The notes below the pieces were generated by a model. It searched no databases and was not told the DNA's origin. It worked only from the letters and a program-made list of their open reading frames with translations. Shown one piece after another: positions 8,604-14,624 of a stretch of DNA of 64,000 bases (the first letter of the stretch is position 1; every line of letters begins with the position of its first letter). The position numbers and the translations under genes were made by a program. The stretch spans positions 62,001 through 126,000 of the forward strand of contig NZ_JANKBZ010000014.1 in the NCBI RefSeq assembly GCF_024623785.1. Reading direction: 5' to 3'. Source of the stretch: Archangium lipolyticum (GTDB lineage Bacteria > Myxococcota > Myxococcia > Myxococcales > Myxococcaceae).

Positions 8604-9971
8604 ATGAGCACCTGGTCCCCCACTTCCTGGAAGACGAAGCCCATCACCCAAGACGTCCACTATGAGGAGCAGAAGGAGGTGGAGGAGGTCGTCGCGGAGC
8701 TCGGCCGGCTGCCTCCGCTGGTCACCTCCTGGGAGGTGGAGCGCCTGCGCGAGCTGCTGGCGGAGGCCCAGCAGGGCCGCCGCTTCCTGCTGCAGGGCGG
8801 GGACTGCGCCGAGTCGCTCTCCGACTGCCGTCCGGACATCATCACCAACCGGCAGAAGATCATCCTGCAGATGTCGCTGGTGCTCATCCACGGAGGGCAC
8901 CGGCCCGTCATCCGGGTGGGGCGCATCGCCGGCCAGTACGCCAAGCCACGCTCCAAGCCCACCGAGACGCGCGGGGGCGTGGAGCTGCCCAGCTACTTCG
9001 GGGACCTCGTCAACCGGCCGGAGTTCACCCCCGAGGCGCGGCGGGCGGATCCCCGGCTGATGCTGGCCTGCTACCACCACGCGGCGATGACGCTCAACTT
9101 CGTGCGCTCGCTGAGCGACGGTGGTTTCGCGGACGTGCACCACCCCGAGTACTGGGACCTGAGCTTCTTCCGGCAGGCCGCCGTGCCGGGCGAGCTGCGC
9201 GAGGAGTACGAGCAGACCACCCGCAAGCTCAGCGAGGCCCTGCGTTTCATGGAGGCCCTGGGCGAGCGCACCGTGGCGGACCTCACCCGCGTGGACTTCT
9301 ACACCAGCCATGAGGGCCTCAACCTCCATTACGAGTCGGCCCAGACGCGTCAGGTGCCGTGGCGCCAGGGCTGGTACGACCTGACGACGCACCTGCCGTG
9401 GATTGGCGAGCGCACCCGGGCCCTGGACGGCGCGCACGTGGAGTTCTTCCGCGGCATCCGCAACCCGGTGGGCGTGAAGCTGGGCCCCAGCGTGTCCCCC
9501 GCGGACGCCGTCCGGCTGGCCGAGCAGCTCAACCCCGACAACGAGCCGGGCAAGCTCGTGCTCATCACCCGCATGGGCGCCCAGAAGGTGGCGGACGCGC
9601 TGCCCCCGGTGGTGGAGGCCATGCGGCGGGCGGGCCGGCTCGTGCTCTGGGTGTGCGACCCGATGCACGGCAACACCGTGAGCACCTCCTCCGGCATCAA
9701 GACGCGCAACTTCGATGACGTCCTGCACGAGGTGGAGCGCAGCTTCGACGTGCACGAGCAGCTCGGCTCCTACCTGGGCGGGGTGCACTTCGAGCTCACC
9801 GGCGAGGACGTCACCGAGTGCATGGGCGGTGCCGTCGGCATTACCGAGAAGGATCTGGAGCGCAACTACGCCACGCTGTGCGATCCGCGGCTCAACTACC
9901 GCCAGGCCCTGGAGATGAGCTTCCGCCTCGCCCGGCGCATGAGCAGCCTGCCCCGCGCACCCCGGTCCTGA
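8604..9971 (+). CDS. class II 3-deoxy-7-phosphoheptulonate (DAHP) synthase
   Basis: 455 aa, the usual length for the plant-type class II enzyme. It condenses phosphoenolpyruvate and erythrose-4-phosphate to DAHP, the first step of the shikimate pathway to aromatic amino acids and many secondary metabolites. Motifs: FLLQGGDCAES (residues 68-78), RPVIRVGRIAGQYAKPRS (about 100-117), YTSHEGLNL, VKLGPSVSP, LITRMGAQKV, WVCDPMHGNT (metal site), HFELTGEDVTECMGG (about 391-405) and LCDPRLNYRQALEM. Begins with ATG 20 bp after a TTGACC-like -35 with no strong SD. It stands alone, so whether it serves primary or secondary metabolism is open. Confidence 0.95.
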   Translation: MSTWSPTSWKTKPITQDVHYEEQKEVEEVVAELGRLPPLVTSWEVERLRELLAEAQQGRRFLLQGGDCAESLSDCRPDIITNRQKIILQMSLVLIHGGHRPVIRVGRIAGQYAKPRSKPTETRGGVELPSYFGDLVNRPEFTPEARRADPRLMLACYHHAAMTLNFVRSLSDGGFADVHHPEYWDLSFFRQAAVPGELREEYEQTTRKLSEALRFMEALGERTVADLTRVDFYTSHEGLNLHYESAQTRQVPWRQGWYDLTTHLPWIGERTRALDGAHVEFFRGIRNPVGVKLGPSVSPADAVRLAEQLNPDNEPGKLVLITRMGAQKVADALPPVVEAMRRAGRLVLWVCDPMHGNTVSTSSGIKTRNFDDVLHEVERSFDVHEQLGSYLGGVHFELTGEDVTECMGGAVGITEKDLERNYATLCDPRLNYRQALEMSFRLARRMSSLPRAPRS

Positions 9972-10049
9972 GCCACAACCGCTCACGCGCGTGTCACCGG
10001 TGGACAGGCCGTGCAGCTCCCTTCGGGCACACGCCTGGACGGTACGTTC

Positions 10050-11243
10050 TCATGCGTACTCGCGCTCGAGGAGACGGGCGGCCACCGCGGCGCCATCGCC
10101 TTTCACGTCGCCGGCCAGCGCCGCGGCACGGTCTGCGACTCGTGGCTCGAGGGCGACGCGCAGAGCGGAGGCCACTGAGTCGACGCTGAGTTCGGCGCGC
10201 GGGACGGATGCTCCCAGCCCCAGTGCACGAACCCGGGAACCCCAGTACGGCTGATCGGAGAACATCGGGACGAGCACCTGCGGTACGCCGGCCCGAGCGG
10301 CCGTCGTCGTGGTCCCCGCTCCCCCGTGGTGCACCACCGCCGCGAGGCGTGGGAACAACGTCTGTTGGTTCACATCGCCGATCGCGATCACATCGTCCGC
10401 GTCGTCGATCAGGCCCAGCCCGGCCCATCCTCGCGACAGCACCACACGGCGGCCGACCGACCGCACGGCCTCGACGACGGTGCGGCCCGCGGCCTGATCA
10501 GCGGGCATGCTGCCGAAGCCGACGTAGACCGGCGGCGCGCCGGCCGCGAGGAACTCCTCCAGCGCCGGCTCCAGCGGCGCCTCGTCCTCGAGGAGCCAGG
10601 CACCGGTCTGCACGACGCGCATCCCCGGTGTGCTGGGCAGCGGCCCCAACGTGGGGTCGGCCGCGAGCCACGGCTCATCGGAAAGGACGTGGTTGCGCAA
10701 CTCGCTCAGCGGGGCGAGCCCCAGCCGGCGCCGGTTGTCGTTCACGAGCTCGAGAAATCGCTGATTCCACGCCCGCGACTCGTCCGCCCATCGCTGCATG
10801 TTCGCAACCGGGTCTCCCCCGGGCTCTCCATCCGGCGCGTGGTCCGGCGACGGAAGCACCACCGGGGCGTAAAGAGCAACAACGCAGGGGAGCCCTCGCG
10901 ACTCGGCAATGGAACGGACAGCGTATTGGTGCGCCCCTCCGCCGACGAGCATCTCGCATCCCTCCACGGCCGACGCGATCACGTCGAACTGGTTGGTCAC
11001 CAGGTGTCGGACCAGCTCGCGCATCTGCTCCGGGGTCGGCGCTGTTCCCGCCGACCCGCCTCGGGGCTCACGCATCGCGATGCCGATCGGCGTCGCGTCG
11101 AAGCCGAAGCCCCTGACCCAGTCGAGGAAGTTGGGCGGCACACAGAGCCGCACAGCGTGACCGCGTGCCCGCAGCTCCACCGCCAACGCCACGATGGGTT
11201 GCACGTCACCGCGCGTTCCGATTCCTGACAGAAGTACCCGCAC
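10050..11243 (-). CDS. GT1-family (MGT/erythromycin-type) glycosyltransferase
   Basis: 397 aa from the GTG at 11243 (MRVLLSGIGTRGDVQPIVALA), the normal N-terminus of the family; the frame stays open upstream but with no family resemblance. The N-terminal acceptor domain has GTRGDVQP (residues 9-16) and the GHAVRLCVPPNF strand. The C-terminal donor domain has APPVYVGFGSM, RVVLSRGWAGL, GDVNQQTLFPRLAAVVHHGG, AGTTTTAARAGVPQVLVP and FSDQPYWGSRVRALGLG. It would transfer a sugar from a nucleotide donor to a small lipophilic or peptide acceptor. It lies 129 bp downstream of the lanthipeptide precursor gene on the same strand with no clear terminator between, so the two may be cotranscribed. A related decayed copy lies at 2278-2529. 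Confidence 0.9.
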   Translation of the reverse strand: MRVLLSGIGTRGDVQPIVALAVELRARGHAVRLCVPPNFLDWVRGFGFDATPIGIAMREPRGGSAGTAPTPEQMRELVRHLVTNQFDVIASAVEGCEMLVGGGAHQYAVRSIAESRGLPCVVALYAPVVLPSPDHAPDGEPGGDPVANMQRWADESRAWNQRFLELVNDNRRRLGLAPLSELRNHVLSDEPWLAADPTLGPLPSTPGMRVVQTGAWLLEDEAPLEPALEEFLAAGAPPVYVGFGSMPADQAAGRTVVEAVRSVGRRVVLSRGWAGLGLIDDADDVIAIGDVNQQTLFPRLAAVVHHGGAGTTTTAARAGVPQVLVPMFSDQPYWGSRVRALGLGASVPRAELSVDSVASALRVALEPRVADRAAALAGDVKGDGAAVAARLLEREYA

Positions 11244-11372
11244 CGTCGTTCTCCGTTCCGCGCCCACCTTGGACGCATCGAAAGACAGAGGACAAAGGTG
11301 GCAGGTGTGACGCGATTTTTCAGCAGAAGGAAGAGCCGCCGAAGGTTCGAGCGGAACCAGCAAGCACCGCGC

Positions 11373-11606
11373 TCAGAACTCCTGCGGGCAGGAGTTCAAG
11401 CTGCAATTCAACGTCAGGATGCAGCAGAAGACCGGTTCAGTCACCGGCAACTCCAGGCCTCCCACGGTTTCATGCAGCTCGCGCTCTCCGAGCTCTGTCA
11501 GGGGCCTGCCGGACGGCGACTCGGGGAGGGCTGCCCGTTGCCCGGCTGGCAGCGACGCTCGGTACCGCGGATCCTTCCATGCACGGATGACCATGTCCTT
11601 TTTCAT
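11373..11606 (-). CDS. class II lanthipeptide precursor, mersacidin/lichenicidin family
   Basis: 77 aa, ATG at 11606, with a strong GGAGG Shine-Dalgarno 6 nt upstream. The N-terminus MKKDMVIRAWKDPRYRASLP followed by an ALPESPSG block and an acidic stretch ending ETVGG is the leader typical of the mersacidin/lichenicidin precursor family (IRAWKDPxYRxSL...LPxxPxG...GG). Cleavage after Gly49-Gly50 would leave a 27-residue core that contains Cys61, Cys62, Cys68, Cys73 and Thr56, Thr65, Ser69, Ser72, i.e. four Cys and four Ser/Thr for up to four (methyl)lanthionine rings. No LanM, LanT or LanB-like gene is in the window, so modification must come from elsewhere or the gene is an orphan. The GT1 gene lies just downstream. 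Confidence 0.75.
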   Translation of the reverse strand: MKKDMVIRAWKDPRYRASLPAGQRAALPESPSGRPLTELGERELHETVGGLELPVTEPVFCCILTLNCSLNSCPQEF

Positions 11607-11808
11607 GAAACGCCTCCGACTGGATAGAGTGCGTGGGCGCCCTTCGTGACATTGCCATTGGCAGGAGCGCAGCAGGATCCGCGTTTACGGAGGATGCGTT
11701 CGTTCACGAAGTCGGGGCGCGCCAGGGCGGCCAGAACCGGGGCCAGGTGTCTCGGGGGCGACATCCCCGGAGGCAAAGAAGAGAGCAACTCCCATCCAGA
11801 GGTGGTGA

Positions 11809-12918
11809 ATGACACGCATCGCGGTGCTCGGAGCAGGTGGGGTGGGGAGCGCGGCGGCGCGGTTCCTCGCGCGCGAGGGACACGAGGTCACGGTGCTCGA
11901 ACAATTCGAGACCGACCACGACCGGGGCAGTTCGTACGGGACCTCGCGCATCATCCGGAAGACGTACACCGATGGCTTCTACACGACGTTGATGGGCGAG
12001 GCGTACCCGCTCTGGGACGAGCTCGAACGCGAGGCGGGCGAATCCCTGTTCGCGCGCACCGGAGGGCTGTTCTTCGGCCCCGAGGACCACCCGGAGCTGG
12101 CCGCCGTCCGGCGCGCGTTGAAGGACAACGGAGTCCCCTTCGAGGAGCTGGAGCCCGGCACGTGCGCGCGGAGGTTCCCACGGCTCCAGCTCCTGCCCGG
12201 AGAGGCCGGCGTGTTCGAGCGGGAGGCTGGGTTTCTCCGAGCCTCGGCATGTGTGCGAGCCAACCTCCGACTGGCAACCGCGCACGGGGCCCGGGTCCGC
12301 TCCCGCACTCCCGTGGAAGGTCTCGAGCCCCGCCCGGGGGGCATCCGGCTCACATTGGCTGGCGGCGAAGCGCTCGACGTCGACCGGCTGGTGGTGACGG
12401 CGGGGCCGTGGACCGCTCGACTGCTCGCCCCCTTCGTCGCCCTGCCCTTCACCGTGACCCGGCAGGTGTATTGCCACTTCGAGCCGGAGGTTCCACTGGC
12501 GGACTTCGGCGCGGAGCGGTTCCCGGTGTGGATCGATCTCGCGACGAACTTCTATGGCTTCCCGCACGATGGGCAATCGCCCGGCGTGAAGGTCGCATGG
12601 CACATGCCGGGCACGCCCACGGACCCCGACCAGGTGGACCGGACGCTCCACGAGGAGGACCGGGAGCCCCTCCGACGCTATTGCGCCGGGCACCTGCCCG
12701 GGCTGTCGTCGCGCACTGCCCACGAGAAGGTCTGCCTCTACACGATGACGCCGGACAGCGACTTCGTGGTGGACCACCTGCCGGGCGAGCCCCGCGTCAC
12801 CCTCGTGGGAGGACTGAGCGGGCACGGTTTCAAGTTCACCGTGTTGCTCGGACGCATCGCTGCCTGGATGGCCACGGACCGGAAGGTGCCGTGGGAGCTC
12901 TCGCGCTTCGCCCTGTAA
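11809..12918 (+). CDS. SolA/MTOX-like FAD-dependent amine oxidase
   Basis: 369 aa, ATG start. The N-terminal Rossmann fingerprint is VLGAGGVGSAAARFLAREG (residues 6-24), with the acidic end of strand 2 in VLEQF. The MSOX/MTOX block RGSSYGTSRIIR is at about 39-50 and GPWTARLLAP in the middle. Cys309 in KVCLYTMTPDSDFVVDHLP matches the cysteine that binds FAD covalently in monomeric sarcosine oxidase and N-methyltryptophan oxidase. The C-terminal GGLSGHGFKF block is also present. It would oxidise an N-methyl or other secondary amino acid to imine plus H2O2. It is divergent from the lanthipeptide precursor (202 bp between starts). Substrate not deducible. Confidence 0.88.
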   Translation: MTRIAVLGAGGVGSAAARFLAREGHEVTVLEQFETDHDRGSSYGTSRIIRKTYTDGFYTTLMGEAYPLWDELEREAGESLFARTGGLFFGPEDHPELAAVRRALKDNGVPFEELEPGTCARRFPRLQLLPGEAGVFEREAGFLRASACVRANLRLATAHGARVRSRTPVEGLEPRPGGIRLTLAGGEALDVDRLVVTAGPWTARLLAPFVALPFTVTRQVYCHFEPEVPLADFGAERFPVWIDLATNFYGFPHDGQSPGVKVAWHMPGTPTDPDQVDRTLHEEDREPLRRYCAGHLPGLSSRTAHEKVCLYTMTPDSDFVVDHLPGEPRVTLVGGLSGHGFKFTVLLGRIAAWMATDRKVPWELSRFAL

Positions 12919-13096
12919 GCGATTGGAGGCGGCCTCTCGCTCGGGCGCATCGCGTCGGGCGTCATCTGGGAAACGAGAGACTCCCACGGGATGTCGTGGG
13001 ATTGACACGCTCCGAAAGCGCTCACCCGGAGCCCAGAAGCGCTGAAGCCGGCGCGCGTAGGGTCCGGTCCCTTTCCAAAGGGAAGAGAGCCCACGA

Positions 13097-14536
13097 ATGC
13101 CTCGGACTTTTCGTCACACCGTCCTCGCCTCGGTCGCTGTCCTGCTGTCCTTGGGCTGTGCCTTCGCGCAGTCGGCCAAGGATCCCAAGCCGGGTGGTCT
13201 CAAGACGCCTACACCCAAGGACACAGGCGACCAGACGTACACGATTCCAGTAGTGGCCGAGGAGAGCTTCCAGGCCGTCATGGCCCGCGACATGAAGGAG
13301 AAGGCCGGGGTCATGCGCCGCCAGCAGGCGCTCCTCGAGGCCCGATACGACCTCTCCAACCGGCCCGCGAAATCCATGATGGCGGGCGGCCGCAAGGCCG
13401 TGCAGGAGGGGATCCGCGTCAAGCTCCCGAATGGAGTGACCTGGGAGCAGCTCGCAGCCATGCGCCCAGACGAGATCCGCGAGAAGGGCCTCTTCCCGCA
13501 GGGCTTCCTTCCACTGCCTCATGTCAAGCACGCCGTGGGGGGGCAGGTGTTTCCGAAGATGGAGATCGACGAGATCCGCAAGCAGGAAGGCCGCTCGCTC
13601 GAGCGCTTCGACGTCGATTTCGATCTCCCCGAGCACCTCCTGCCCGAGTTCCCGCCGCCCATCTTCCTCTCGCAGCGACCCGAGCTGGGTGACGTCTCCC
13701 AGGGCAAGGTCCTCACCATCCGCAACTTCTTCGAGATCATGAACGGCAAGCTCACCCCCGTTCAGATGGATGGCCTCCGGCAGCTCCTCACGCCGTTCCC
13801 GCAGGCGGAGTTCAACGCGACCGACGCCCGGAAGGTGGCCGAGGGAAGCCTGGGCGTCACCTGCCTGGACTGTCACGTGAATGGCCACACGAACGGAGCC
13901 TTCCACCTGAACCCGGACACCCGGCCTCAGGCCGCGCGCTTCCGGCTCGACACGGTCAGCCTCCGGGGGGTGTTCAACCAGCAGATCCACGGCTCGAAGC
14001 GCTCTCTGCGCTCCATCGAGGATTTCACCGAGTTCGAGCAACGCACCGCCTATTTCAACGGAGACATCGCGGATGCCGCCAAGAAGGGCGTGAACGAGCC
14101 CGACCGCCCCACCCAGGTGGCGATGATGGCCCAGATGCAGAACATGTTCGACTTCCCGCCAGCTCCCAAGCTCCTGCCCACGGGCCGCCTCGATCCGGCA
14201 CTGGCCACGGACATGGAGAAGCTGGGCGAGAAGGTCTTCTTCGAGAAGGGGCAGTGCGCGACCTGCCACCCGCCGCCCTTCTTTCTCGACAACAACATGC
14301 ACGACCTCAAGGTCGAGCGATTCTTCAAGCAGCAGACGATCAACGACCAGGCCATCCACGCCGATGGACCCATCAAGGCGTTCACGCTCCGGGGGATCAA
14401 GGATTCGCCTCCCTACCTGCACGACGGACGCCTGCTGACGCTCGAGGACTCGGTGGAGTTCTTCAACCTCGTCCTGGGCCTCAAGCTGGAGCCCCGCGAG
14501 AAGGAAGCGCTCGTCCACTACATGCGAGCGCTCTGA
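13097..14536 (+). CDS. di-haem cytochrome c, MauG/cytochrome c peroxidase-like
   Basis: 479 aa with a Sec signal (MPRTFRHTVLASVAVLLSLGCAFA; residues LSLGC could also act as a lipobox). Two c-type haem motifs are visible: C256LDCH260 and C387ATCH391. The C-terminal block DSPPYLHDGRLLTLEDSVEFFN is characteristic of the CCP/MauG family ('PYLHDGR...L.eavefyn'). Between the haems lies HLNPDTRPQAARFRLDTVSLRGV, also family-like. The protein would be periplasmic or envelope-attached and perform peroxidase- or MauG-type redox chemistry; it needs the Ccm system encoded at 55141-60554. It stands alone, followed by a dispersed hairpin repeat (14537-14624). Confidence 0.85.
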   Translation: MPRTFRHTVLASVAVLLSLGCAFAQSAKDPKPGGLKTPTPKDTGDQTYTIPVVAEESFQAVMARDMKEKAGVMRRQQALLEARYDLSNRPAKSMMAGGRKAVQEGIRVKLPNGVTWEQLAAMRPDEIREKGLFPQGFLPLPHVKHAVGGQVFPKMEIDEIRKQEGRSLERFDVDFDLPEHLLPEFPPPIFLSQRPELGDVSQGKVLTIRNFFEIMNGKLTPVQMDGLRQLLTPFPQAEFNATDARKVAEGSLGVTCLDCHVNGHTNGAFHLNPDTRPQAARFRLDTVSLRGVFNQQIHGSKRSLRSIEDFTEFEQRTAYFNGDIADAAKKGVNEPDRPTQVAMMAQMQNMFDFPPAPKLLPTGRLDPALATDMEKLGEKVFFEKGQCATCHPPPFFLDNNMHDLKVERFFKQQTINDQAIHADGPIKAFTLRGIKDSPPYLHDGRLLTLEDSVEFFNLVLGLKLEPREKEALVHYMRAL

Positions 14537-14624
14537 GGTGGAGCACCACGGCGGGCCCGACATCCTGAAGACGGGCTCGCGCCATCACGAGCCCGGGCCG
14601 GTAAGGCGGGCGAGGTCACTGACG
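14537..14624. repeat. dispersed hairpin repeat, copy A
   Basis: 88 bp, nearly identical (four substitutions and a 3-nt gap) to copy B at 20418-20508. It contains the perfect stem GGGCTCG/CGAGCCC around an 8-nt loop (14573-14594), followed by CGGGCC. It begins directly after the stop of the di-haem gene and lies in the convergent gap before the monooxygenase gene. No T run follows the hairpin, so it is either a Rho-assisted terminator or a small repetitive element. The rest of the gap to 14688 shows no gene. Confidence 0.75.

Follow-up and report, generated by a model that had tools for sequence, protein, structure and literature searches.

A class II lanthipeptide precursor gene of Archangium lipolyticum as a member of a dispersed, prochlorosin-like set probably modified in trans

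The prochlorosins and synechococsins of marine picocyanobacteria are described, in parts of PMC10783134 and PMC7268733, as a system of many genome-scattered precursors with a conserved leader and a variable core that share one LanM. Here we analyze a small gene in a 64,000-nucleotide stretch of Archangium lipolyticum DNA (the window), which corresponds to positions 62001-126000 of contig C14 in a 12.6-Mb draft genome of 75 contigs (G000). Sequence comparison makes it probable that this gene is one of a dispersed, prochlorosin-like set of class II lanthipeptide precursors that have a common leader and upstream motif but differing cores, and that would be modified in trans by machinery encoded on contig C23. 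The set is like ProcA-ProcM and SyncA-SyncM in its scattered precursors, conserved leader, variable core and, as we infer, a single LanM acting on all. This likeness appears to be one of working mode and not of membership because leader family and zinc site differ: prochlorosin leaders are of the Nif11 type and those of the window set are mersacidin/lichenicidin-type leaders of ~50 amino acids, and ProcM has a three-Cys zinc site (CCG motif) whereas the C23-type LanMs have CHG. The zinc motif of the prochlorosin-like LanM subfamily is listed as CCC in part of PMC11251773. The promoter-like motif shared by the window set is counted as a further difference from prochlorosins.

The gene lies on the minus strand, which a preliminary description of the window had left unstated, and encodes a 77-amino acid protein composed of the leader MKKDMVIRAWKDPRYRASLPAGQRAALPESPSGRPLTELGERELHETVGG, with its GG cleavage site at residues 49-50, and the core LELPVTEPVFCCILTLNCSLNSCPQEF. 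The mersacidin/lichenicidin-type leader proposed in that description was upheld by a hidden Markov model (HMM) search, which gave TIGR03898, the model for that family, at E 2.1e-17 and 62.8 bits (cut-off 23.5); only this model passed, no Pfam family reaching its cut-off and no Nif11 family being among the matches of the profile search. The core length, the counts of Cys and Ser/Thr, and the GGAGG ribosome site given there were likewise found again in the translation and the upstream sequence (Table 1). The open reading frame (ORF) is not a chance one, because it has 51 above-cut-off relatives in seven genomes, and because its core has relatives at four other loci in three genomes. Comparative evidence thus confirms it as a real, if still predicted, class II lanthipeptide precursor gene. 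It has the leader HMM match, the GG site and the core with Cys and Ser/Thr that characterize TIGR03898 precursors, and lacks the nearby LanM. It resembles the mersacidin/lichenicidin family by its leader but lies far from any LanM, as a member of a dispersed set, and its core is one that we take to be unlike the cores of that family.

The 51 precursors above the TIGR03898 cut-off (three further rows fell below it) were distributed as 14 in G000, 13 in G001, five in G002, nine in G003, three in G004, one in G005 and six in G018. Assigned by leader type and neighbourhood, 43 form one leader class, and the remaining eight belong to other LanMs, two in G000 (C2, C17) and six in G002, G003, G004 and G018. 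The 14 of G000 accordingly comprise two that sit beside their own LanM, on C2 and C17, and 12 of one leader type, two of these on C23 with a LanM and a C39 exporter and ten on eight contigs elsewhere, including that of the window. A like arrangement recurs in relatives, G001 having 13 precursors and a single DUF4135 protein. Of 59 relatives surveyed with the window protein as query, 10 gave matches at E ≤0.01. The designation of the gene as an orphan holds in that there is no LanM nearby, but not in the sense of isolation: with its leader it is classed as a member of a dispersed set of 12 precursors in this genome, not as a mere orphan. Open-access literature (titles and abstract starts, with subscription papers outside the search) yielded no paper describing scattered Archangium precursors.

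The machinery matching this leader class is on C23, where two class precursors, on the same strand, have a C39 peptidase-ABC exporter on one side and a LanM on the other. The exporter is closest to NHLM-type exporters, at 622.4 against that model's cut-off of 853.3. Dehydratase and cyclase domains are present in the LanM, whose TIGR03897 score is 1027.6 (cut-off 304) and which aligns over nearly its full length to LicM2 of the mersacidin/lichenicidin family, at 497 bits. One LanM of this type occurs in each of six of the seven genomes, with identities of 100% (G000), 92% (G003), 80% (G001), 80% (G002), 79% (G005) and 67% (G018) in a comparison that left out one weak DUF4135 match in G000 (C2:18312), and also in two held-out genomes, Hyalangium versicolor and a Myxococcaceae metagenome-assembled genome (MAG; 66%). 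All six C23-type LanMs examined carry the zinc motif CHG. The window itself holds none of the genome's seven LanC-domain proteins and none of its nine C39 peptidases, in agreement with the preliminary description, which had found no LanM or LanT there and had considered modification by a distant LanM possible. That suggestion gains comparative support from the occurrence of 12 same-leader precursors with one matching LanM/exporter cluster.

LanII-2B of Archangium violaceum is a class II lanthipeptide with three Cys and four Ser/Thr that undergoes two dehydrations and forms two rings in E. coli (PMC9576775, in part). The same Cys and Ser/Thr counts recur in the core next to the sole LanM of G005, and on these counts LanII-2B very probably corresponds to the G005 LanM (79% identical to that of C23) and the precursor of this leader class that adjoins it. 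Because this pair, so matched, is active in E. coli, the C23 type of LanM is very probably active on this type of leader. LanII-2B differs from the present case in being one adjacent LanM-precursor pair, with no scattered precursors mentioned in the part of PMC9576775 covered, and in its core.

That the C23 LanM acts on the scattered members, including the window precursor, is the reading favoured by these comparisons. An alternative is that another lanthionine synthetase of the genome modifies the window precursor, be it the C2, C17 or C4 LanM or a kinase-LanC protein encoded on C14 about 109 kb from the precursor. Such enzymes do exist in the genome, and substrate tolerance is common in LanMs, but this alternative is very unlikely given that the precursors belonging to the C2 and C17 LanMs differ in leader and lack the motif, that the C14 kinase-LanC protein has no DUF4135 match, and that G001 has the same precursor class and only a C23-type LanM. 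The kinase-LanC protein is an 883-residue LanC-domain protein with a kinase-like middle, encoded outside the window (L050, 2824-5475, plus strand), and is of class III/IV type by its look.

Within the class, leaders are kept and cores are free to differ. In the 66 pairs formed by the 12 G000 members, mean leader identity was 0.63 (pS 0.50, pN 0.23), and mean core identity was 0.16, where shuffled cores gave 0.15. Leader identity in five orthologous pairs of G000 and G003 was 0.85-0.94 and core identity 0.47-0.88. One pair (L040 on C37 of G000 and L077 on 232105 of G003) has leaders near-identical even at silent sites (pS 0.03) and cores with pS 0.44 and pN 0.40, a difference that looks like core replacement or leader conversion.

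The window core does have relatives. Aligned with the core of G003 L078, which was picked as partner for its likeness, it scored 36, compared with a shuffled mean of 7.2 and none of 1000 shuffles as good, and three further cores resemble it, two in the Myxococcaceae MAG and one in H. versicolor. In the five-core alignment a CC pair and a third Cys are invariant, and one core is cut short and lacks the fourth Cys. All five precursors carry the promoter-like motif and none sits at any LanM found in the genomes searched. We accordingly class the window core, from its alignment, in a CC-type subfamily that is also found in another Archangium, in H. versicolor and in the Myxococcaceae MAG. Two dispersed CC-type precursors of different genomes have a neighbour protein in common, 82% identical (L226 1842-2237, plus strand; L227 1725-2300, minus strand), which was not found in the window.

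The upstream motif has the form GTCACA, 14 bases, ACTCC[A/T].CC. Scored with a weight matrix from which each precursor was left out in turn, at a level that no more than 1 in 200 resampled controls attained, it was present before 37 of the 43 class precursors (among the six without it are the two precursors of the C21-type pair and two of the three copies that are degenerate) and before none of the eight that go with other LanMs. Because the 43 class members are related, other genera were held out: the motif preceded all ten held-out class precursors, which come from H. versicolor and the MAG (scores 17.3-28.9), and none of five held-out precursors with their own LanM (three from Corallococcus, one each from H. 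versicolor and the MAG; -5.0 to 9.9). Nor was it found at that level in any of 49 other relatives in public genomes (scores ≤5.8). It also precedes the exporter operon, at 16.2 in G000, 17.8 in G003 and 21.3 in G002.

Through the motif two more precursors came to light, both decayed and neither among those above the cut-off. The first, in G003 (L148, near 1174, plus strand), is a 47-amino acid ORF behind the motif whose leader is shortened and which stays under the HMM cut-off. In G001 (L066, near 7031, minus strand) the motif precedes an interrupted leader start, MKKEMIVRAWKDP; the sequence beyond presumably resembles the start of a transposase. The motif also occurs before non-precursor genes conserved between G000 and G003, among them those for a 297-residue protein and an acetyltransferase-like protein (L145 1707, plus strand; L149 3063, minus strand; L124; L151). 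The regulon, if there is one, may thus be wider than the precursors.

The bipartite layout is promoter-like and suggests both a promoter role and a common regulator; the dispersed precursors are probably co-regulated. The nearest described pattern is that of ECF41-type sigma promoters, TGTCACA-n16-CGTC (PMC3426412, in part), in which the first (-35) box matches and the spacing is similar; here, however, the second box is ACTCC and the spacing slightly shorter. A nearby ECF-like gene (L039, 14079-14870) is not claimed as the regulator, scoring 40.4 bits against a cut-off of 42.9.

Taken together, the observations suggest a system in which a common regulator or sigma factor would read GTCACA-N14-ACTCC and activate the dispersed precursors jointly, probably along with the exporter operon. 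As leader sharing and gene counts suggest, the leader would then dock on the matching C23 LanM, which would dehydrate core Ser/Thr and close thioether rings with Cys in trans, and the C39 peptidase-ABC exporter of the C23 cluster would cut after GG and export the product. Several points weigh against this proposal. Modification of the scattered precursors is a prediction from sequence, and in G004 the motif stands before a single class precursor although no LanM there is closer than 45%. The exact motif pattern occurs 28 times in G000, 26 in G003 and 20 in G001 (9, 7 and 11 for reversed controls), and only six of the 28 G000 sites precede class precursors, several others preceding unrelated genes. 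The G000 exporter-operon site is barely above an antisense hit in the same locus (15.8), and the window motif ends closer to its ATG than the 32-59 bp of other copies. Among the five G000-G003 orthologous pairs there is one in which core similarity slightly exceeds leader similarity. Some members of the set may be dead, as Cys is missing from two of the 12 G000 class cores and several copies have a decayed appearance.

We lean, by a modest margin, towards a broader reading in which Archangium, Hyalangium and a related lineage have independently evolved a prochlorosin-like combinatorial system with mersacidin-type leaders, where precursors turn over fast at scattered sites, one dedicated promoter class ties precursors and exporter into a regulon, and new cores become products wherever they land. 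Genome mining near LanM is said, in part of PMC7268733, to miss scattered prochlorosin precursors, and mining limited to LanM surroundings would overlook precursors such as that in the window. If modification in trans is true, several lanthipeptides per genome would come from one enzyme set, and substrate tolerance would extend to a LanM with a canonical CHG zinc motif, outside the CCG group. If the regulon reading is true, the motif offers a search handle for unannotated members of the set. It would also be a handle on the timing of diversified peptide release in these bacteria, a question that part of the prochlorosin literature calls open.

The gene that follows the precursor encodes a GT1-type glycosyltransferase (Rgt-like, 346.5 bits, under that model's cut-off of 800) whose possible GTG start lies 129 bp after the precursor stop codon on the same strand, as the preliminary description had reported in proposing a glycosylated lanthipeptide. 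The arrangement itself stands, and the proximity is what speaks for a local pair in which this enzyme glycosylates the window lanthipeptide. The functional link does not hold up. In G003 the same glycosyltransferase (93%) and the same oxidase (98%) adjoin without a precursor between them; tblastn at E 1e-3 found no relative of either protein at another 33 class loci, of which 28 span 5-9.5 kb and five ~3 kb; no gene in the 40 loci compared matches any window protein; and the precursor has its own motif, common to precursors without such a glycosyltransferase. The four relatives of the window core, moreover, sit at loci other than the glycosyltransferase/oxidase pair. A glycosylated-lanthipeptide or glycocin-like cluster, which would call for a glycosyltransferase conserved with the precursor, was rejected on the G003 pair and the 33 loci, and the local pairing is highly improbable. 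Because G003 keeps glycosyltransferase and oxidase without the precursor and the 33 loci lack the glycosyltransferase, the adjacency is taken as that of a chance neighbour.

The window aligns to G003 at 95-96% over 10030-11326 and 11785-14544, on either side of the segment that carries motif and precursor (Table 1). The absence of this segment in G003, the odd spacing of motif and ATG, and the decayed-looking members of the set (without Cys, or truncated) would fit a duplicated leader that yields no product, the copy being decayed or silent. We regard this as unlikely, as the open frame has a leader, a GG site and four Cys and is preceded by a ribosome site and the motif, and the core Cys positions are kept in relatives from other genera.

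Matches to the 458-bp segment in five other genomes amount to 17 rows; 16 fall in the leader-coding part and its start, and the remaining one is a 49-bp piece. A mobile cassette with shared ends was considered and rejected: evident orthologues and neighbours aside, 200-bp flanks compared by blastn were similar mainly in about the last 75 bp upstream, and the flanks of the window precursor had no match among precursor flanks. With 458 bp in the window and 88 bp in G003, the difference does not amount to a clean insertion, and we propose no mobile mechanism. The region around the precursor is locally plastic, in that a class II DAHP synthase gene (8604-9971, plus strand) lies between the 7880-8502 gene and the glycosyltransferase gene, and the latter two are adjacent without it in G003.

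Table 1. Coordinates of the precursor gene, its parts and adjoining features in the window
Feature	Position	Strand	Basis
Class II lanthipeptide precursor gene (predicted), 77 amino acids + stop	11373..11606	-	ORF; TIGR03898, 62.8 bits; relatives
Leader-coding part, 50 amino acids, GG at end	11457..11606	-	Conserved in 12 paralogues; alignments
Core-coding part, 27 amino acids, 4 Cys, 4 Ser/Thr, CC-type core subfamily	11376..11456	-	Alignment of five cores (CC pair, third Cys invariant)
Promoter-like motif ATGTCACG-N14-ACTCTATCCAG, end 13 bp before ATG	11620..11652	-	Left-one-out score 22.6; 0/200 resampled controls
Ribosome-binding site GGAGG, 6 bp before ATG	11613..11617	-	Read from sequence
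Perfect 9-bp inverted repeat, last core codons	11376..11397	-	Folding z -3.05
458-bp segment (motif and precursor); 88 bp instead in G003	11327..11784		Alignment with close relative G003
Neighbouring GT1 glycosyltransferase, judged outside the system	10050..11243	-	Profile match; G003 synteny; tblastn

A sigma-70 scan of 11000-11900 gave no promoters, and the same interval holds one terminator-like site, at 11793-11781, where shuffled sequences average 0.5. The inverted repeat in the last core codons has a 4-base loop, stands before the stop codon and lacks a T-run; one of 200 shuffles was equally stable.
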